Shown: piece by piece, positions 9,300 through 54,019 of the stretch
How the letters are laid out: every line of letters starts with the position of its first letter
How positions within the stretch are numbered: position 1 is the first letter of the stretch
Assembly: GCA_022760735.1 (NCBI GenBank)
Contig: JAKELU010000001.1
Location: 2,383-66,382 of the forward strand
Direction of reading: 5' to 3'
Length of the DNA stretch: 64,000 bases
Origin: Firmicutes bacterium FC7
GTDB taxonomy: Bacteria > Bacillota > Clostridia > Tissierellales > Tissierellaceae
The notes under the pieces: model-generated
Database searches by the model: none
What the model saw: the letters and a program-made list of their open reading frames with translations, nothing else
Told to the model about the DNA's origin: nothing
Translations under genes and position numbers: made by a program

Positions 9300-9325
9300 G
9301 AATTGACAATTGAGAATTGACAATT
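9300..9325. repeat. Short tandem direct repeat in the gerM-rph gap
   Basis: The 12-mer gaattgacaatt occurs at 9300-9311 and 9314-9325, separated by two bases. The unit is partly palindromic (aattg/caatt). No gene is seen in 9256-9559; it holds only this repeat and the hairpin element at 9446-9510. Confidence 0.6.
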
Positions 9326-9445
9326 ATTCGGGTCAGTCATATTAGGTTTGGATAACTATTTATATGTTTTGCATAAATAGGCTTAGTATGTAAGTTATTT
9401 AAGTATATCATTATCTCTTTATATCTAATTTTAAATAAAATAAAT

Positions 9446-9510
9446 GGAGATTCCTTGATTTAGCTGGTAACGTCTTAGAAAGTACATTCCAACTGTCACA
9501 AGAAATCCCC
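9446..9510 (-). other. Long hairpin element between gerM-like gene and rph
   Basis: Read on the minus strand, this 65-base stretch folds almost end to end. GGGGATTTCTTG pairs with CAAGGAATCTCC (12 pairs, two of them G-U), AGTTGG with CCAGCT, AATGT with ACGTT and CTT with AAG. The G-U pairs form only in minus-strand RNA, the direction of the operon. It has no T run, so it is not a simple terminator. It could be a REP/MITE-like palindromic element, an mRNA-processing or stability hairpin, or part of the rph leader. No known RNA family was recognised. Confidence 0.55.
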
Positions 9511-9559
9511 TGCTAAGATTATTATAGACTTAATAATTTTAAATTATAAAAATATCTAA

Positions 9560-10549
9560 TTAATATTCATTAGCAAATACAGGAACAGATGTATTGATTA
9601 TTTCTTCTCCTACTAATACTTCTACAGCTTCTATTTCATCAAATTCGCTGAGAGTTAAGCCGATATTCTTAATTAAATCATCAACTGTTGCATCTATTGT
9701 TAACATACTCTCTGCACCTAGATTAATATCAACATATGCTGTACCATCCTTTATTTCTACTCCTTGGAATTCTGCATCAAATGGTATGTCAGATGTCAAG
9801 CCTGAATCTTCTGGTGGCCCCTCAAATAGAAGATCTAAAGCTGTAAAAACGTTTGACACAGGTGCCATTGTAGGAATAGTAACAGGAACAAAATATTCAA
9901 AATCAGTATCTGAACTACCTTTATAATATACTACTACATTTGATCTTCCGTCCCCTGGATTTCCTAATAAGTTTATATTTTCCCTAGTTAGAACTGAAGC
10001 TACACTAGTTCCATTTCTTAATGAATTTATTTCTTTTCCTTCAACTAATATTTTTACCTCGTTAATTGTTGGGAATTCAGTTAAAGTATATACAACACCC
10101 TTAAGTAAATTTTCTTCATCCTTTTTAGAATCTTTGTTTAGGAATTCTTCAGAAAAATCAACCTTACACAAACCTGTATCAGGATCAATTGACATACCAT
10201 ATATTTCAGTACCTGCTGGAATAAGTGGTAATAATCCAGTTGAACTTAATGATTCCCTTAACTCAGGTGTATCAATCATATTTCTTAGAGTAACTTTTGC
10301 TATACCTTCCTCCCAAGGAATCCTTCTCATAACAGGTACAATATATCCATTTTCATCTTGGAAGTATAATACTGTTTTTCTCATACCTTCCTCTTCTACG
10401 ATATCTAAAATGCTATCATCAGAGCTTACTATTTCAATTTGATCTGGAACCTCTGAGATATCATCAGAAACAAGATTTCTTCCTAATGTAACAGCCGTTA
10501 TTACTAATACAACTATAATAGCAAATATGGCTATTCTTCTATTTACCAT
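9560..10549 (-). CDS. gerM: GerMN domain membrane-anchored/exported protein (GerM-like)
   Basis: A 329-residue protein with an N-terminal hydrophobic anchor (RRIAIFAIIVVLVITAVTLG, residues 4-23). Two GerMN domains follow: roughly residues 80-185 (VTLRNMID...LLPLIPAGTEI...KVDFSEEFL) and 205-310 (ALDLLFEGP...GTAYVDINLGAE). GerM in Bacillus acts in spore coat assembly and germination and in sporulation channel assembly. The same gerM-rph-rdgB order supports the name. The start at 10549 is chosen because the GGGGGG ribosome-binding site falls inside the longer open frame. Confidence 0.85.
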   Translation of the reverse strand: MVNRRIAIFAIIVVLVITAVTLGRNLVSDDISEVPDQIEIVSSDDSILDIVEEEGMRKTVLYFQDENGYIVPVMRRIPWEEGIAKVTLRNMIDTPELRESLSSTGLLPLIPAGTEIYGMSIDPDTGLCKVDFSEEFLNKDSKKDEENLLKGVVYTLTEFPTINEVKILVEGKEINSLRNGTSVASVLTRENINLLGNPGDGRSNVVVYYKGSSDTDFEYFVPVTIPTMAPVSNVFTALDLLFEGPPEDSGLTSDIPFDAEFQGVEIKDGTAYVDINLGAESMLTIDATVDDLIKNIGLTLSEFDEIEAVEVLVGEEIINTSVPVFANEY

Positions 10550-10616
10550 AACTAACCCCCCTATCATAATACTAGTATATTATATTAGAGGGGTTGTTAG
10601 ACTATGAATAAAATAC

Positions 10617-11138
10617 TTATTTTTTAATATTACTAAAATACCCACCACTAATCGGATTGATATTGTTTACTGTTATGAAAGCATCTGCTTCATGCTCATA
10701 TACAAGTTTCTTTAAATTGTTTAAATCTTTTCTGTTTAAGGCAATATTTAGTACTTCCTTAGGGCCATTTATTCCCTCTCCTCGAATTATAGTTACTCCA
10801 AAGCCATGCTCTCTAAGCGAATCTACTAAATCGTGATTCTCTGAATTTTTTAATATAATTTGTGCAGAAAGATTTCCTAAAGCTATTTTATTTTCAATTG
10901 TAATTCCAACAAAGTTTCCTGTAGCAAAACCTAGACAATATGCAAATAACTTCAAAGGGTCATCTAAACTGCTTACCACTGAGCTTAATGCAGTAACGTA
11001 AATTCCAACTTCAAAAAATCCTATCGCTGCTGCCTGAACCTTTCTTCCCTGTACTACCATCAATGTTCTGATTGTTGCCAATGTTACGTCCATGACCCTA
11101 GCCATAAATATAATAACGTAACTGAAAATTAATGACAT
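10617..11138 (-). CDS. DUF2179 / UPF0316 family membrane protein
   Basis: A 173-residue protein with about three membrane helices in the first 95 residues (including MARVMDVTLATIRTLMVVQG and FEVGIYVTALSSVV), then a soluble alpha/beta DUF2179 domain (residues 100-165, ending VNNINPISGGYFSN). The family is widespread in Firmicutes; DUF2179 domains also end YitT-type proteins. No biochemical function is established. It lies between the amidase and gerM-like genes. Confidence 0.85.
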   Translation of the reverse strand: MSLIFSYVIIFMARVMDVTLATIRTLMVVQGRKVQAAAIGFFEVGIYVTALSSVVSSLDDPLKLFAYCLGFATGNFVGITIENKIALGNLSAQIILKNSENHDLVDSLREHGFGVTIIRGEGINGPKEVLNIALNRKDLNNLKKLVYEHEADAFITVNNINPISGGYFSNIKK

Positions 11139-11190
11139 ATAAATCCCCTTTCAAAAATAATGTGGGAAGGTCTCCCTCCCCACTAATATT

Positions 11191-13305
11191 TTAATACATT
11201 TCAAAGTAATTTTGAATACCATTTACTAATCCTTGAACAACTAGATTGTGATGATTTTGATCAATTATTCTCAACTCTTCTTGTGCATTTGATAAATATC
11301 CAACTTCAACTAGTACAGCAGGCATATTAGTTTCTCTAATTACAACAAGTCCAGGCCTTTGAATAATTCCTCTATCAACACCTTTTGTACTTGCTATAAT
11401 TCCCTTTCTAACAGCATCTGCTAAAGGATATTGATCCTCTGTCTTGGCAGTTCCCTTTTCCCTTGGACAATAAAGAATTTCTAAACCATTAATATCCTTA
11501 TTTATTGTTGAGTTATGATGGATACTAACAAATATATCTGCATTATTACGGTTTGCAATATTAGCTCTTTCATATAAATCTACAAATGTATCATCAGTTC
11601 TTGTCATTATAACATTATATCCAAGAGACTCAAGTAAACTTTGAGTCTTTAAAGCAATTTGTAGATTTACATCTTTTTCTTTCGTACCGTTAGGAGAAAT
11701 AGCACCTGGGTCCTTTCCACCATGACCAGCATCTATAACTATTGTTTTATCCGTATATGGTATACTAGGGTCCCTTTTTACTGAAACCACTATTTTTTCA
11801 TCTTTTCTGCTTGAAAAAAGATCGTATACAATACCTCTTTTAAAGGTAATTGAAATAATCTTATTATCAGCTTTCTGAGTTACTTCAATATACTCAATGA
11901 AGTTGTCCTTTATAGCCGTAATCCCTTCTGCAATGGATATACTTTCACTTGGTATTTTTATATCCATTTTCTTTAATGTAGCATCGTATTCAACATCATA
12001 CTTTGTTTTTTCATCATTTTTAATTGTAATATATCTTTCGTTATTGTAAGTTTCATAAGATATAAATTCCCAAATACTCTTTTCAGGAGTAATTACTAAC
12101 ATATCTTTATCTCTTTCAATAGATATATTAGGTTCATTTACTCCATCCACCATGTCTAATACTATCCTAACGATTCTATCGTTAGGACTGTAATTTGAGT
12201 CACCTGCAAATTGTGATACTCTTACTTTTTTAATAAATCCAGCTTGTACATCATATTCATAAATTTTTTCTTTAAGGTTTGTATCTAATAGGTCAATTAC
12301 TATTCTTTCAGGAGATTTTAGCTTCAATACATTATATTGTACGTTTTCCATACCTTCAATAATTAGTGAATCTTTACCGTCAACTTCTTTAACTCTAATC
12401 CCATCAAACTCATATTCTTCAAAGGTTAATATTGTAGTCTTTCCATCTGATGAAGTATAAAAATCATAATCGCACTCATCATCAAGCTGTACAACAATCC
12501 TAGTAATATATGGATTAGTATCATATTGAGAATATGTTACTCTTTTAATATATTCATCATTAACGGAAATATCACCAGGTGTGTCTCCTTTGATTGTTTT
12601 AAGCTTTGAGTTCTCAATATCTACTATAAGCTTATTAGAATCTGGTAAAAATATCGCATCGAATTTGATAGCTCTATCACTATCAACAACCACCCTGTGT
12701 TTCGAAGTGCTTCCTTTTACAACTCTAATATTGCTTATAGTTGCAACATCTACTTCTTCTTCATCCTTAGGACTAGGAGTTATAATAGGGTTTAATTCAA
12801 TTACCTCTACATCTTCATCTGGAGAATTTATAAAAGGTACTTCATTGTTTTCGTCCCAGCCAACTTCATATCCTAATACCTCTGAAATAAATCTAACAGG
12901 TACCATTGTCCTAGAATCATTATTGCTAAATGTAACTAGTTTTGGTATCGAGTTAGTGTCTAATGTCTTTACTTGATTGTTTACAACTACTTTGTTACTG
13001 TCTATTGTTAATTTAACTTCATTATTTCCATGTTGTACTGTGGCAGTTTTTGTCGATTGTTCCCAGTCTACTTTTGCACCGAAACTTTCAGCTACAAATC
13101 TAATTGGTACCAAAGTTCTATCTATATATATAAATGATGGAACGTCAGACTTAAAGACTTGTCCATCTAATAAAACTCCGACTTCCTTTACTTGAACCTT
13201 ACTGCCATTCATACTTACATTTATAAAGCCATTGGCACCAAAAGCAATGGAATTAACCGTTAACAGAATTAAAAGTAGTGACAATACCACCAACCATCGT
13301 TTCAT
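11191..13305 (-). CDS. N-acetylmuramoyl-L-alanine amidase with copper-amine-oxidase-N and AMIN domains
   Basis: A 704-residue secreted peptidoglycan amidase. A signal peptide (residues 1-23) is followed by a copper-amine-oxidase-N-type repeat domain (DRTLVPIRFVAESFGAKVDW; MVPVRFISEVLGYEVGW), then AMIN-like beta domains in the middle. The C-terminal Amidase_3 domain has its zinc and catalytic residues: DAGHGGKDPG, ERANIANR, SIHHN and VEVGYLSN. It cuts the amide between MurNAc and L-Ala, probably in cell separation or wall turnover. It is transcribed alone from a near-consensus promoter. Confidence 0.95.
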   Translation of the reverse strand: MKRWLVVLSLLLILLTVNSIAFGANGFINVSMNGSKVQVKEVGVLLDGQVFKSDVPSFIYIDRTLVPIRFVAESFGAKVDWEQSTKTATVQHGNNEVKLTIDSNKVVVNNQVKTLDTNSIPKLVTFSNNDSRTMVPVRFISEVLGYEVGWDENNEVPFINSPDEDVEVIELNPIITPSPKDEEEVDVATISNIRVVKGSTSKHRVVVDSDRAIKFDAIFLPDSNKLIVDIENSKLKTIKGDTPGDISVNDEYIKRVTYSQYDTNPYITRIVVQLDDECDYDFYTSSDGKTTILTFEEYEFDGIRVKEVDGKDSLIIEGMENVQYNVLKLKSPERIVIDLLDTNLKEKIYEYDVQAGFIKKVRVSQFAGDSNYSPNDRIVRIVLDMVDGVNEPNISIERDKDMLVITPEKSIWEFISYETYNNERYITIKNDEKTKYDVEYDATLKKMDIKIPSESISIAEGITAIKDNFIEYIEVTQKADNKIISITFKRGIVYDLFSSRKDEKIVVSVKRDPSIPYTDKTIVIDAGHGGKDPGAISPNGTKEKDVNLQIALKTQSLLESLGYNVIMTRTDDTFVDLYERANIANRNNADIFVSIHHNSTINKDINGLEILYCPREKGTAKTEDQYPLADAVRKGIIASTKGVDRGIIQRPGLVVIRETNMPAVLVEVGYLSNAQEELRIIDQNHHNLVVQGLVNGIQNYFEMY

Positions 13306-49647: not shown

Positions 49648-50115
49648 TTATCTTCTTATAACAGTTGCTGTAAATGTTATAGGACCTAAAAGATTAACAT
49701 CATCATCGTCTGTAGATATTACCAAAGAGTAATTCACAGGTCCTGCTTGAGTTATAACATCTACTGTCTGAACAGGTATTAGTGCTAAATCATCATCTTC
49801 GCTTCCGTCTACATTCACTATAAACTGATAAATTACATCGCCATTTTTTCGAATTCTTGTATCAATTTCAACAGGAGAATTTGAATTATTATCTATCCTA
49901 AATAGTCCATTAATCCAAATCTCATCCCCAGGTTCAAGCCCAAATAACATTACATTCGCAACCTGAGTTGGGTTGTTTGGTTCTTCTGAAACTCGTATAG
50001 GTTCTACTGGATTAAGAGTTTCCCATGCAAAATCCTTAAAAATAGATTGACTAGTAATATCCGAATTACATTGACAACCATATTTATTGACTATGCTTCC
50101 TACAATCTTTGACAT
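49648..50115 (-). CDS. Hypothetical beta-rich protein
   Basis: A 155-residue soluble protein with no membrane segment. It begins MSKIVGSIVNKYGCQCN and has repeated beta strands with Asp-rich turns (STDDDDVNLLGP, DGSEDDDLALI). The jelly-roll-like layout recalls C-terminal domains of exosporium or collagen-like spore surface proteins, but this is only a resemblance. ATG at 50115 is preferred (GGTGAT upstream); ATG at 50151 is possible. Confidence 0.55.
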   Translation of the reverse strand: MSKIVGSIVNKYGCQCNSDITSQSIFKDFAWETLNPVEPIRVSEEPNNPTQVANVMLFGLEPGDEIWINGLFRIDNNSNSPVEIDTRIRKNGDVIYQFIVNVDGSEDDDLALIPVQTVDVITQAGPVNYSLVISTDDDDVNLLGPITFTATVIRR

Positions 50116-50192
50116 TTGTATATCACCTTCATACTTATATATTTCACTCATTAATAGAGCTAATATATAATATGAAAGACTTTAGATATTTG

Positions 50193-50852
50193 TTATTTTA
50201 TAGGCACTATAGCAAGATTATCTATTTTTAACTTATCTCCCACGTCAAACTTCACTGCATTTTTAAACAATGGTCCATCAAAGGCAAATGTATGATATTC
50301 ACCATTTTCACCACATATATCTGCACCTGATTTTTCTATTTCATCAGCTACTTCCCTTGTAAGTACTTTTCCCACAAAGTATTCTGGCATTCTAGAAGTG
50401 TCCACTACAGTTATCAAAGTCTTAAAACCTAGGTCTATAAACTCATATACAAGCTTTTTTCTTGATTCTTTCCATAGCGGAAAAAATGCTTCTAGGCCTA
50501 CCGCTTTGCATCTTTGTGTACACCATTCTAGATGTCCCTCTAAATCTATGTCCCCAAAAACACAATATTCAGCACCATTTTCCTTTGCTTCACGAAGCTT
50601 TGCTTCAAATTTTTCAGTATATTCATCACCTTTTGTCCTTATTAGGGAAATAGGGATATTCATCTCTTTTGATATATTGTCTAATATATTTTGTGGTATT
50701 CCGTGAAACCAAGTTCTTTCTTTATCTACATTAAATGTAGTAATTAGTTCCATTGGTATCATGCCCAGCTTAATGGCTCTATAAATTGCTAATGTACTGT
50801 CCTTGCCTCCACTATATGAGGCCACAAATTTTCTTCCTTTATATCTATCCAT
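50193..50852 (-). CDS. DUF71/COG2102 ATPase (diphthine-ammonia-ligase-like), probable B12 salvage protein
   Basis: A 219-residue PP-loop ATPase: SYSGGKDSTLAIYRAI is the PP-loop, followed by FGDIDLEGHLEWCTQRC and GENGEYHTFAFDGPLF, the DUF71 signature. Archaeal and eukaryal relatives (Dph6) amidate diphthine, which bacteria lack. A bacterial branch was linked to cobalamin salvage by gene neighbourhood, and here the gene is last in a cobalamin-riboswitch operon after btuF, btuC and btuD. A role in amidating a B12 precursor is inferred. Confidence 0.88.
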   Translation of the reverse strand: MDRYKGRKFVASYSGGKDSTLAIYRAIKLGMIPMELITTFNVDKERTWFHGIPQNILDNISKEMNIPISLIRTKGDEYTEKFEAKLREAKENGAEYCVFGDIDLEGHLEWCTQRCKAVGLEAFFPLWKESRKKLVYEFIDLGFKTLITVVDTSRMPEYFVGKVLTREVADEIEKSGADICGENGEYHTFAFDGPLFKNAVKFDVGDKLKIDNLAIVPIK

Positions 50853-50876
50853 ACTATTACTCCTATTTTTCTTTCT

Positions 50877-51647
50877 TTAGAATTCAGATAACATTTCCCA
50901 TTTCTTTAAAGAATCTAACATAAATCCTACTACATCCATACTGTATACTTTGTTTAATACGTTACTAGTTACAGCCTTATTAGCACTTCCACAGGATACT
51001 ATTCTACCCTCTTCTAGTATTAAAAATTTATCACCAAGCCTCATAGCGAGATTTATATCATGTAAGACCCCAACTATAGAATGACCTTTCTCCTTGGACC
51101 ACTCTTTTAAATAATCTATAAGTTCTGCCTGATACTTTAAATCCAAATGATTAGTAGGTTCGTCTAACAAAATAATATTAGGCTCCTGTGCCAATGTACG
51201 TGCTAAAAAAACTCTCTGAAGCTGCCCACCTGAAAGTTCATTTATTTGCTTATCTTTTTGCTCGTATAGTCCAACTGCCTTTAAGCACTTTTCCACACAT
51301 CTTTTATCATAGGACGTTGGCCCCTTAAATACTCCCTTCATATGCAAATACCTGCCTAGTAATACGGTCTCATATACGGAATATGAAAAGAATATAGATG
51401 ATAATTGGCTCATAACAGCTATTTTACTAGCAATTTCCTTTCTTTTCATATTACCTATATCTTTTCCTTCTACTAAAATCTTTCCTTTACAAGGAATAAG
51501 ACCAGCTATTGCCTTAATAAGGGTAGTTTTTCCACATCCATTTGGCCCAAGTATACATAGATTTTCGCCATAATTAAGACTTAAAGATATATCCTTAATT
51601 ACGTCTATTCCATCATAACCTGCACTTACATTTTTTAGTTCTAACAT
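50877..51647 (-). CDS. btuD: Cobalamin ABC importer ATPase
   Basis: A 256-residue FecCD/BtuD-type ATPase with GPNGCGKTTLIKAIAG (Walker A), ELSGGQLQRVFLARTLAQ (signature), IILLDEPTNHLDLKYQ (Walker B) and a LHDINLAMRLGD switch region. It lies three bases after the permease gene. Iron-siderophore systems look alike; the riboswitch decides for cobalamin or a corrinoid. Confidence 0.93.
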   Translation of the reverse strand: MLELKNVSAGYDGIDVIKDISLSLNYGENLCILGPNGCGKTTLIKAIAGLIPCKGKILVEGKDIGNMKRKEIASKIAVMSQLSSIFFSYSVYETVLLGRYLHMKGVFKGPTSYDKRCVEKCLKAVGLYEQKDKQINELSGGQLQRVFLARTLAQEPNIILLDEPTNHLDLKYQAELIDYLKEWSKEKGHSIVGVLHDINLAMRLGDKFLILEEGRIVSCGSANKAVTSNVLNKVYSMDVVGFMLDSLKKWEMLSEF

Positions 51648-51650
51648 ATA

Positions 51651-52670
51651 TCATCTAACCTTTCGTTTTGAAAAATAAACATGGGCAAAAAATGGTGCAC
51701 CAATTAATGCTGTAACTGCTCCTACTGGTAGCTCCGAAGGTGATATTATAGTTCTGGCTATTAAATCACATATTACCATAAAGGCTCCCCCTATGAACAT
51801 GGACATTGGAATAACTATTTTATGTGATGAACCAAAAAAATTTCTAACAACATGAGGTGCTATTAAATCAATAAATCCAATGACTCCAACAAAGGAAATA
51901 GCACTTCCTGTTAAGCCTGCGGACAATCCTAATAGAATCCACTTTACCTTATGTGTCTCAACTCCTATAGCTGAAGCTTGATCCTCTCCGAAGGTCATCA
52001 AATCAAGCTCTCTTGAATACCTCATTAAAATTATTACTCCAATAACTACAATCGGAAGCAGTATTATTACACTTGACCATTCCCTTGAAGAGAAACTACC
52101 CATTTGCCAGAATAATAACTGTTGGACATGCTCCCTTCCCAAAGCAGACATAAGGGTTAAAATTGCATTAATAAATAAGGAAAATACCATTCCTACTAAT
52201 ATAATAGTATTGTTAGACATATTCTTATCTAATTTAGATGTAAAAGTTATTGCTAAAAAAACTGTTAGTAGCCCAAAGGTCAAACCAAATACAGGTAGGG
52301 TAAACATACCTAAAAAAGGTATGCTTAATCCTGTAATTATAATTATCCCAGCACCTACTGAGGCCCCTGATGAAACCCCTAAAGTATAGGAGGAAGCAAG
52401 TGGATTCTTAAGTACTGACTGCATTACAGTACCACTAACTGCCAATGCTCCTCCAACTATAAAAGCAAGGAGTGTACGTGGTATTCTTAAATTCCATACT
52501 ATAGAAACTGAAGCATCTGGAATATCACCTAAAGGTTTAGAAAACATCCTACTTATTAATATATTTATAGTAGTTTTAGGCGGTACATAAATGCTTCCAA
52601 TGCCTATGCCCAATATAATCACAATAATGCATATTAACAAGGTAATTAATATTTTTACTTTCGTCTTCAT
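51651..52670 (-). CDS. btuC: Cobalamin ABC importer permease
   Basis: A 339-residue FecCD/BtuC-type permease with about ten membrane helices. LRIPRTLLAFIVGGALAVSG and VMQSVLKNPLASSYTLGVSSGA are the classical family block, and SFVGVIGFIDLIAPHVVRNFFG is the coupling-helix block. Two bases after the binding-protein gene. Confidence 0.94.
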   Translation of the reverse strand: MKTKVKILITLLICIIVIILGIGIGSIYVPPKTTINILISRMFSKPLGDIPDASVSIVWNLRIPRTLLAFIVGGALAVSGTVMQSVLKNPLASSYTLGVSSGASVGAGIIIITGLSIPFLGMFTLPVFGLTFGLLTVFLAITFTSKLDKNMSNNTIILVGMVFSLFINAILTLMSALGREHVQQLLFWQMGSFSSREWSSVIILLPIVVIGVIILMRYSRELDLMTFGEDQASAIGVETHKVKWILLGLSAGLTGSAISFVGVIGFIDLIAPHVVRNFFGSSHKIVIPMSMFIGGAFMVICDLIARTIISPSELPVGAVTALIGAPFFAHVYFSKRKVR

Positions 52671-52672
52671 AA

Positions 52673-53626
52673 TTAATCAAACTTATCAGGATATACTGCC
52701 TTTGCCATTTCTTCTAAAGCTATTACAATATTGTGATCAGGGACGGAACTTTTCATATTGTCAACATAGTAAACTTCATCGTTTTTTATTGCTTTTACAT
52801 TTTCCCAGCCAGAACGAGATTTTATTTCTTCCACAGGATTTTCTATATAATTTACATTTGTGATTATAACATCTGGATCTGCAGCTAAAACTGCCTCATC
52901 TGAAACTGATATCCAACTTTCTTGATCACCTAAAGCATTTACTGCTCCTATTATTTCAAGCATTTCATGTAAGAACACACCTTTACCAAAACTGTACATA
53001 TATGGTGCTGCACCTATTTCAAAGTAAACTGTTTTCTTTTCAGTAATTGTATCTCCTATTTCTTTAAATTCAGCTATTATTTCTTTCATATTATCTACTA
53101 TTTCTTGCCCTTTTTCCTCTTCACCTACAACCTTTGAGATGAACATAATATCATTATATATTTCTTCTATGCTTTTACTTGAAGGAATATAAACTACTGG
53201 TATTCCTAAATCAGAAACAGGTTTTAATGGATTATTTCCTTCTACCATCATCATACCCGTTGCAAATATTAAGTCTGGATTTAATGCAATTATTTGCTCA
53301 ATATCAGGAGACATTAAATCTATATATGGTAAATCCTCAGGTAAAATTCCTAAAGTTTTAGTTTGTGCATCTGATGCTATGATTTTATCCTTAAAGCCTA
53401 ATTCTACTAAAATCTCAGCATTTGAAGGCCCTAAAGGTATAATTGTATTTATTTCTTCAGGAATCATGATTTCATTGCCTTCTGAATCTACTACTACATT
53501 TGGGGCATTACCCTCATTTAGCTCTTGACTTTGCTCTGTTTGTTCTTGTTTAGCTGTACATCCACTCAATATTGAAATTACTAAAATAATTATAATCCCT
53601 ATAGAAAATATATTTTTCTTTTTCAT
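52673..53626 (-). CDS. btuF: Cobalamin-binding lipoprotein
   Basis: A 317-residue Fe/B12-type solute-binding lipoprotein with lipobox ILSGC (Cys about 23), a short acidic linker, and the periplasmic-binding fold (IIPLGPSNAEILVELGFKDKI, IEQIIALNPDLIFA, AADPDVIITN, GWENVKAIKNDEVY). First coding gene behind the cobalamin riboswitch. Confidence 0.93.
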   Translation of the reverse strand: MKKKNIFSIGIIIILVISILSGCTAKQEQTEQSQELNEGNAPNVVVDSEGNEIMIPEEINTIIPLGPSNAEILVELGFKDKIIASDAQTKTLGILPEDLPYIDLMSPDIEQIIALNPDLIFATGMMMVEGNNPLKPVSDLGIPVVYIPSSKSIEEIYNDIMFISKVVGEEEKGQEIVDNMKEIIAEFKEIGDTITEKKTVYFEIGAAPYMYSFGKGVFLHEMLEIIGAVNALGDQESWISVSDEAVLAADPDVIITNVNYIENPVEEIKSRSGWENVKAIKNDEVYYVDNMKSSVPDHNIVIALEEMAKAVYPDKFD

Positions 53627-53684
53627 TTCATCCCTCCATTGTCATTTAAATTAAATACTTTGTCACTCACTAGGTCATAAAAAA

Positions 53685-53969
53685 ACGTCCCGGATACTCC
53701 GAAACGTAAATAACCACAAATAAACTTTGGGACAGTTATCCCAATACTTATTAAGTTACTATTACCCTATCCGTGTAGAGCATAGCATTTGCGGTATTTA
53801 CGCAAATAATATTGGCAGGTATTCCGACTTAGAGTTCATCGCTTGTTTTTAGCCTTCCCAGATTTCTCCAGTGGCTTGCTTTCGCATAAAAACAGCTCTC
53901 TCATCACGGCAGCAGGACTGTTTAGGATTTTAACCTAATTCCCTATTAACACATTTTGTGACCAATATT
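53685..53969 (-). promoter_or_regulatory. Cobalamin riboswitch with terminator
   Basis: The minus strand shows the cobalamin aptamer from 53969 to 53808: outer stem AATATTGG/CCAATATT, GGGAATTAGGTT, CCTGCTGCCGTGATG, AGCCACTGG with GGGAAGGC, GCGATGA, and the B12-box-like AAGTCGGAATACCTGCC. An expression platform follows. It ends in a hairpin (acgtttcgga with tccgggacgt, at 53685-53707) and a seven-T run. Ligand binding should stop transcription of btuFCD-DUF71. Confidence 0.95.
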
Positions 53970-53990
53970 AAGTTTATTTAATTCAAACTT

Positions 53991-54019
53991 AGTATATTAT
54001 ACCTTTTTTATTCTGTCAA
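53991..54019 (-). promoter_or_regulatory. Promoter of the cobalamin operon
   Basis: TTGACA (54014-54019), 17 bases, TATACT (53991-53996) on the minus strand. The start near 53984 is about 15 bases before the aptamer. The remaining 54020-54178 holds no gene I can see. Confidence 0.8.

Follow-up and report, generated by a model that had tools for sequence, protein, structure and literature searches.

A cobalamin riboswitch-headed btuFCD–DUF71 operon in a Tissierellaceae bacterium and the possible reaction of its PP-loop protein

Which reaction is carried out by the bacterial DUF71 proteins encoded beside vitamin B12 genes? The question has been open since 2012, when the DUF71-B12 subgroup and its link to B12 were published (de Crecy-Lagard et al., PMC3541065), and it is raised again by an operon of Firmicutes bacterium FC7 (Bacillota; Clostridia; Tissierellales; Tissierellaceae). 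The operon lies in a stretch of 64,000 nucleotides, hereafter the window (assembly GCA_022760735.1, contig JAKELU010000001.1, positions 2,383 to 66,382), where a cobalamin riboswitch precedes genes for a BtuFCD-like importer and a DUF71 protein. The excerpts of the 2012 paper used here predict that DUF71-B12 takes the place of bacterial CbiZ, through pseudo-B12 cleavage or another salvage route, and leave the reaction open; they also report that in bacteria DUF71-B12 and CbiZ exclude each other and that the gene clusters with cbiB. A 2016 table, likewise taken from an excerpt, still gives the function as unknown (PMC5041015). No later report of a DUF71-B12 reaction or of a B12-salvage experiment was found in the open-access literature, a scope outside which most subscription journals fall. 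An earlier note on this DNA had named both the published link to B12 salvage and the unproven state of the reaction, correctly within that literature, and had guessed, unlike the 2012 proposal of a stand-in for the CbiZ amidohydrolase (PMC3541065, excerpts), that the protein amidates a corrinoid side chain. Among the readings compared, this guess fits the genome contexts best. We give a rough probability of 0.4 to DUF71-B12 being an ATP- and ammonia-dependent ligase that restores carboxamides on imported corrinoids, the remainder being shared among the rivals discussed below and reactions that we do not name.

The operon and its Dph6-like protein

In order of transcription, the unit and its surroundings comprise the following features.

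53991..54019, minus strand: sigma-70-like promoter TTGACA-17-TATACT (consensus scan, 11/12 bases; pattern match only)
53797..53981, minus strand: cobalamin riboswitch aptamer, RF00174 (103.2 bits, E 1e-24, full model 1-189)
53685..53707, minus strand: intrinsic-terminator-like hairpin between aptamer and btuF (10 pairs, 5 G-C, loop 3, T run; pattern match only)
52673..53626, minus strand: btuF-like substrate-binding lipoprotein, 317 aa (PF01497, 116.6 bits)
51651..52670, minus strand: btuC-like permease, 339 aa (PF01032, 315.9 bits)
50877..51647, minus strand: btuD-like ABC ATPase, 256 aa (PF00005, 120.6 bits)
50193..50852, minus strand: DUF71-B12 PP-loop protein, 219 aa (PF01902, 133.1 bits, cut-off 23.2)
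49648..50151, minus strand: additional open reading frame (ORF), 167 aa, on the same strand as DUF71 and before the next terminator-like site (49632-49613)

The aptamer clears the RF00174 gathering score of 31.5 bits at full length, and the hairpin at 53707-53685 is its probable expression platform; a terminator there, ahead of btuF, points to an OFF switch acting through attenuation. Gaps of 2, 3 and 24 bases separate btuF, btuC, btuD and DUF71, and a pattern scan found no terminator-like site between these genes on the minus strand. Terminator-like sites are enriched in the window (7 versus 1.8 in shuffles), whereas promoter-like sites are not (30 versus 24.9). Because none of the NCBIfam matches listed for btuF, btuC and btuD reaches its cut-off (for btuD, 25 of 194 are listed), the name Btu is based on family, riboswitch and context. 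The riboswitch-controlled btuFCD operon described in the earlier note is thereby borne out. The span it had given, 50193-53969, encloses the genes but cuts into the leader, which starts at 53981, and leaves out the promoter-like site at 54019. That DUF71 is the last gene, as it also claimed, is unproven, since one same-strand ORF (50151-49648) precedes the next terminator-like site; this ORF, without a Pfam match at E up to 1, may be cotranscribed with the btu–DUF71 unit and is possibly its true final gene.

The protein is the sole PF01902 match in the host genome, PF01902 is its only Pfam match, and it does not match the CbiZ family PF01955. Its PP-loop is intact (SGGKDS, residues 14-19) and residues 181-188 form the signature GENGEYHT (E182, N183, G184, E185, Y186, H187), with ENGE[FY]H in the place of EGGE/DXE. 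Family, signature, bacterial host and btuFCD neighbourhood are those of the DUF71-B12 subgroup as set out in the excerpts of PMC3541065; the protein is a member, and nothing basic sets it apart. The structure predicted from 67 aligned relatives (pLDDT 97.7, pTM 0.93) is closest to PH1257 (2d13; Z 27.1, rmsd 1.9, 204 aligned residues), followed by PF0828 with ATP (3rk1; Z 25.2, rmsd 1.9, 202 aligned residues), a result with which Foldseek agrees. Membership of the Dph6/PP-loop family, as claimed in the earlier note, is supported. Identity to Dph6 in the structural alignment is 26%. Relative to PF0828, the window protein retains the ATP-site residues S12, G13, G14, K15, D16, H48 and T189 together with E78, E183 and E186, of which E78 varies across the window's clade. 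In contrast, S44, Y45, Y103, Q104 and A149 are altered, with changes at several residues facing EF-2, and the presumed catalytic E188 is replaced by H187. Histidine occupies this place in 93 of 93 trimmed rows (92 through the pattern, L123 by eye; L and G numbers denote loci and genomes). One of the two search patterns used for named loci included the signature histidine, and the genomes found through Pfam alone likewise carry it (17/17). The riboswitch, the gene order, the family, the fold, the ATP-site residues and the replacement of E188 by histidine can all be read, or strongly predicted, from sequence.

PADLOC gave no match and one scan of viral contigs revealed no relative; from plasmids came 27 records, all below 60% identity, and among seven plasmid regions opened, two were without annotation and the other five without any feature named for B12.

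Related loci, the host and the favoured reaction

In a DUF71 tree of 94 rows, from which 6 fragmentary ORFs had been dropped, the window is placed in a 20-member clade (support 99/97) whose named members are all Bacillota. Of these 20 loci, 13 have B12 genes matched at a distance of no more than 9 kb from DUF71. When 19 of them were scanned with Rfam (L032 being excluded), a B12-class riboswitch headed the DUF71 unit or cluster in eight: the window, L020, L021, L022, L026, L027, L028 and L029. The gene cbiP lies within 121 bases of DUF71 in six clade loci (L019, L020, L022, L023, L026, L029), and L021 has a broken cbiP directly next to DUF71. No CbiC match was obtained in the genomes of L019, L020, L022 and L026, so their cbiP probably serves salvage. 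Gene order in L019 is btuF-btuC-btuD-cbiB followed by cobD-cbiP-DUF71, and in L025 it is cbiB-cobD-DUF71.

Two loci are especially informative. L021 (G171) contains an AdoCbl riboswitch, btuF, btuC, btuD, the broken cbiP and DUF71, and L027 (G177) an AdoCbl-II riboswitch, btuF, btuC, a PduO-like gene, DUF71, a gene for a small Cys-rich protein and btuD; no CbiB, CobS or CbiC match was found in either genome, and both are metagenome assemblies for which no completeness is known. Outside the clade, the single-contig, 100% complete genome G019 possesses a riboswitch-headed cluster, btuF-btuC-btuD/cobU-cobS-cbiP-HAD-cobT-DUF71 (L121:9933-19270), with neither cbiB nor cobD in it and no CbiB match genome-wide. 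For hosts such as these, the production of cobyric acid would lead nowhere. A reaction on an imported corrinoid would still make sense in G171 and G177, where DUF71 sits inside riboswitch-headed btu operons and CbiB, CobS and CbiC were not found.

Two side observations concern the same loci. In the G019 cluster, btuD and cobU form a fusion ORF. Equivalent btu–DUF71 units stand under three B12 riboswitch families:

L027:7343-7414, AdoCbl-II, RF01689
L021:5721-5863, AdoCbl, RF01482
window 53797-53981, Cobalamin, RF00174

The 2.5 Mb genome of the window's host (99.3% complete) gave matches to CbiB, CobS and CbiC in a whole-genome family search and none to CbiZ (PF01955), and contains four cobalamin riboswitches, one of which heads the window operon. 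A second, on contig C7, heads a cluster of cbiA, cbiP, cbiB, a second btuFCD-like set, cobD, cobalt transport, cbiK, cbiC, cbiD and more cbi genes (cbiA, cbiP and cbiK named from NCBIfam, the rest from the family search or from ORF reading). Another precedes cobT on contig C41, and the fourth precedes an ECF S-component and an AIRS-like gene on contig C19 (L117:4912-6493), which we take to be probably cblT-cblS of alpha-ribazole salvage. Contig C18 carries cobU, cobS and a cobC-like gene. A host with this near-complete gene set and these importers is very likely able both to synthesize cobamides de novo and to import them.

DUF71 stays with the importer whether the host is a full producer or apparently relies on uptake only, it adjoins cbiP where no CbiC was matched, and its ATP site is of the carboxylate-adenylating kind. 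For these three reasons we favour an upgrading of imported corrinoids, and the simplest reaction of this kind is an ATP-dependent one that amidates a free carboxylate on the corrinoid. Fold and ATP-site residues match those of Dph6, which uses ATP to form an amide in its own pathway (PMC3541065, excerpts), and this too was counted for amidation. CbiP itself amidates corrinoid carboxylates and often adjoins DUF71 in the window clade, but its fold is unrelated and it normally has a built-in glutaminase domain. Judging from the layout, scarcity of adenosylcobalamin would let transcription pass the terminator; BtuFCD would import corrinoids, on which the DUF71-B12 protein would then act. ATP bound at the PP-loop would adenylate a free carboxylate of the corrin ring with release of pyrophosphate, and ammonia would displace AMP to leave a carboxamide; corrinoids that are under-amidated or have been hydrolysed would thereby become usable. 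What we infer here is which substrate is used, that ammonia is the nucleophile and which way the reaction runs; an amine other than ammonia could take part.

Several points weigh against this reaction. In seven of the 20 clade loci no seed-matched B12 gene lies closer than 9 kb to DUF71. Among five further DUF71 loci from the class to which the window belongs, B12 genes turned up in the fetched stretch of L158 alone. DUF71 presence in that class is patchy (PF01902 in 8 of 118 genomes, 7 above cut-off), and the gene occurs in none of the four nearest relatives drawn (one of the same family, three of the same order), which suggests that it is dispensable or recently gained. The evidence from G171 and G177 comes from those metagenome assemblies. 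The chemistry may have changed, as the presumed catalytic glutamate of Dph6 is histidine in every row. A host with CbiP and a near-complete pathway has no obvious need for an extra amidating enzyme, and DUF71 copies in riboflavin operons are left unexplained.

Competing explanations

The published proposal, a stand-in for bacterial CbiZ that converts pseudo-B12 to adenosylcobyric acid or serves another salvage route, after which CbiB rebuilds the cofactor, is one of the two best surviving rivals, although we consider it unlikely. CbiZ, the adenosylcobinamide/pseudo-B12 amidohydrolase (PF01955), is likewise found near cobamide genes but belongs to another family. To our knowledge it requires no PP-loop. 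Amide hydrolysis requires no ATP, which counts against the proposal. In favour of the proposal are the exclusion and cbiB clustering reported in 2012 (PMC3541065, excerpts), the presence of CbiB and lack of a CbiZ match in the host, the lack of CbiZ from all 20 window-clade genomes, and the adjacency of cbiB and cobD to DUF71 in L019, L020, L025, L026 and L029. CbiR, a cobamide phosphodiesterase of a different family that hydrolyses the phosphoribosyl bond, is comparable in that it is not a CbiZ and its gene lies close to those for cobamides and transport (PMC7733943, excerpts).

The genome survey weakens this proposal. It covered 169 genomes of the same phylum, which are related to each other and in which the DUF71 set includes more than B12-context copies; DUF71 was found in 17, CbiB in 85 and CbiZ in 20. 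DUF71 and CbiZ overlap in two genomes against 2.0 expected (Fisher 'less' p 0.68), and both of these (G066 and G090) carry GENGE[YF]HT. DUF71 is independent of CbiB (p 0.80), which is absent from 9 of the 17 DUF71 genomes, and 25 of the 85 CbiB genomes have CbiZ or DUF71 whereas 60 have neither. At a background of 12%, the 0/20 count for CbiZ in the clade is unremarkable. In a wider set of 67 DUF71 genomes (the 17 from the draw plus 50 of 80 named loci, chosen as the 28 closest plus 22 spread more widely), CbiB was matched in 41, CobS in 52, CbiC in 20 and CbiZ in 15; CobS occurs without CbiB in 12, and 14 have none of CbiB, CobS and CbiC. CbiZ co-occurs in 13 of 51 DUF71 genomes. Within the window clade, CbiB, CobS and CbiC are all present in eight genomes, only CbiC is missing in five, CobS stands alone in G148, and six have none of the three. 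G171, G177 and G019, where DUF71 lies beside B12 genes and CbiB is unmatched, would leave a CbiZ-like product without the enzyme that rebuilds the cofactor. The CbiZ exclusion and CbiB rule of 2012 are not reproduced, rather than disproved, because the survey's sample is not that of the paper, which also used a B12-only subset.

Equally improbable in our estimate is an action of DUF71 on the lower ligand, the nucleotide loop or a flavin-derived precursor of dimethylbenzimidazole (DMB) instead of the corrin ring. DMB is made from FMN by BluB, and this reading is kept alive by DUF71 copies in riboflavin operons. At L122:5373-9799 (G148, contig C12, in the window's own sub-clade), an FMN riboswitch heads ribD-ribE-ribBA-ribH with DUF71 at the end, and a separate riboswitch-headed btuFCD-cobT-cobU-cobS cluster follows about 8.5 kb beyond DUF71; elsewhere in the tree, L055 and L067 show ribE-DUF71-ribBA-ribH near 9300-12300. 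In addition, cobT, cobU or cobS adjoins DUF71 in L048, L053, L058, L064, L098, L121, L127 and L130. However, CobS is unmatched in 6 of the 20 clade genomes, no riboflavin gene is matched beside DUF71 in the other clade loci, and the Rfam scan gave no FMN riboswitch in L055 or L067.

Less probable again is an ATP-dependent ligase for the f side chain that would join cobyric acid to aminopropanol or another amino alcohol, giving cobinamide and bypassing CbiB and CobD. Such an enzyme would suit the G019 cluster, which lacks cbiB and cobD in a genome without a CbiB match while the related L058 cluster has both, and would suit the 12 of 67 DUF71 genomes with CobS and no CbiB. Against this, cobinamide salvage requires no CbiB, so CobS without CbiB is common; moreover, DUF71 adjoins cbiB and cobD in several clade members, and G171 and G177 have no match to either CobS or CbiB. 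A true diphthine–ammonia ligase, as automatic annotation names such genes, shares the fold and is the best NCBIfam match (TIGR03679, Dph6_archaeal), but this role was rejected as next to impossible given a score of 112 bits against a cut-off of 197.3, the E188-to-histidine and other substitutions described above, the bacterial B12 context and the absence of diphthamide from bacteria (PMC3541065, excerpts).

Two replacement roles were also dropped. For a corrinoid adenosyltransferase, L027 already has a PduO-like gene (PF01923, 40.7 bits) directly before DUF71, and for CobU, cobU and DUF71 share one cluster in L048, L053, L058, L098, L121 and L127.

Short CbiP proteins and the meaning of the operon

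The CbiP of the window's host is a protein of 283 aa (L111:2700-3551, contig C7) that retains the synthetase domain and the C-terminal tail but is missing GATase_3. Other short forms lie at these sites:

L019:8400-9293
L127:5391-6299
L163, L164, L165, L166 and L167

Within the window's six-row sub-clade (support 100/93), CbiP is short in all four CbiP-bearing genomes (G000, G169, G175, G171), that of G171 being in pieces and without the GATase part, whereas the rest of the window clade has the full protein in 10 of 10 CbiP-bearing genomes and the short form in none. Short CbiP also occurs in G145, G090, G073, G098 and G225, with two tandem copies in G090 (L163). No spare glutaminase of the GATase_3 type was seen in the host, where the other matches to that family model lie in cbiA only, and no published glutaminase-less CbiP was found in the literature searched, including excerpts of PMC4403557. 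As a separate observation, G193 (the genome of L043) has a CbiP match to the glutaminase half only (230-478 of 480; G193:C63:12280-13083), beside a CobS match.

In the 169-genome sample, DUF71 is present in 3 of 5 short-CbiP genomes versus 4 of 77 full-CbiP genomes (p 0.0037, post hoc), a value that becomes 0.18 after removal of G000 and G145, which had suggested the idea. Two genomes, G073 and G098, have short CbiP and no DUF71, so neither needs the other, and a CbiP tree of 24 rows, being poorly resolved, does not discriminate between a single origin and multiple origins. The link between short CbiP and DUF71 is only suggestive. It is a rather long shot that, in the window lineage, a CbiP without glutaminase runs on free ammonia and is partnered or backed up by the DUF71 ligase, which would use ATP and ammonia to amidate corrinoid carboxylates. 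If true, this would constitute a two-enzyme, ammonia-dependent system of corrinoid amidation and repair coupled to B12 import.

The window operon is an ordinary but clean test case for DUF71-B12. What is new here is a compact riboswitch-controlled DUF71 unit in a host whose de novo gene set is nearly complete, together with survey tests that fail to reproduce the claimed CbiZ exclusion. The survey shifts the first tests to whole imported corrinoids and their carboxylates, beyond cleavage of the CbiZ type. For bacterial genes of this kind the automatic name 'diphthine--ammonia ligase' misleads. If DUF71 does restore corrinoid amides, a repair or upgrade step would be added to the microbial sharing of B12.

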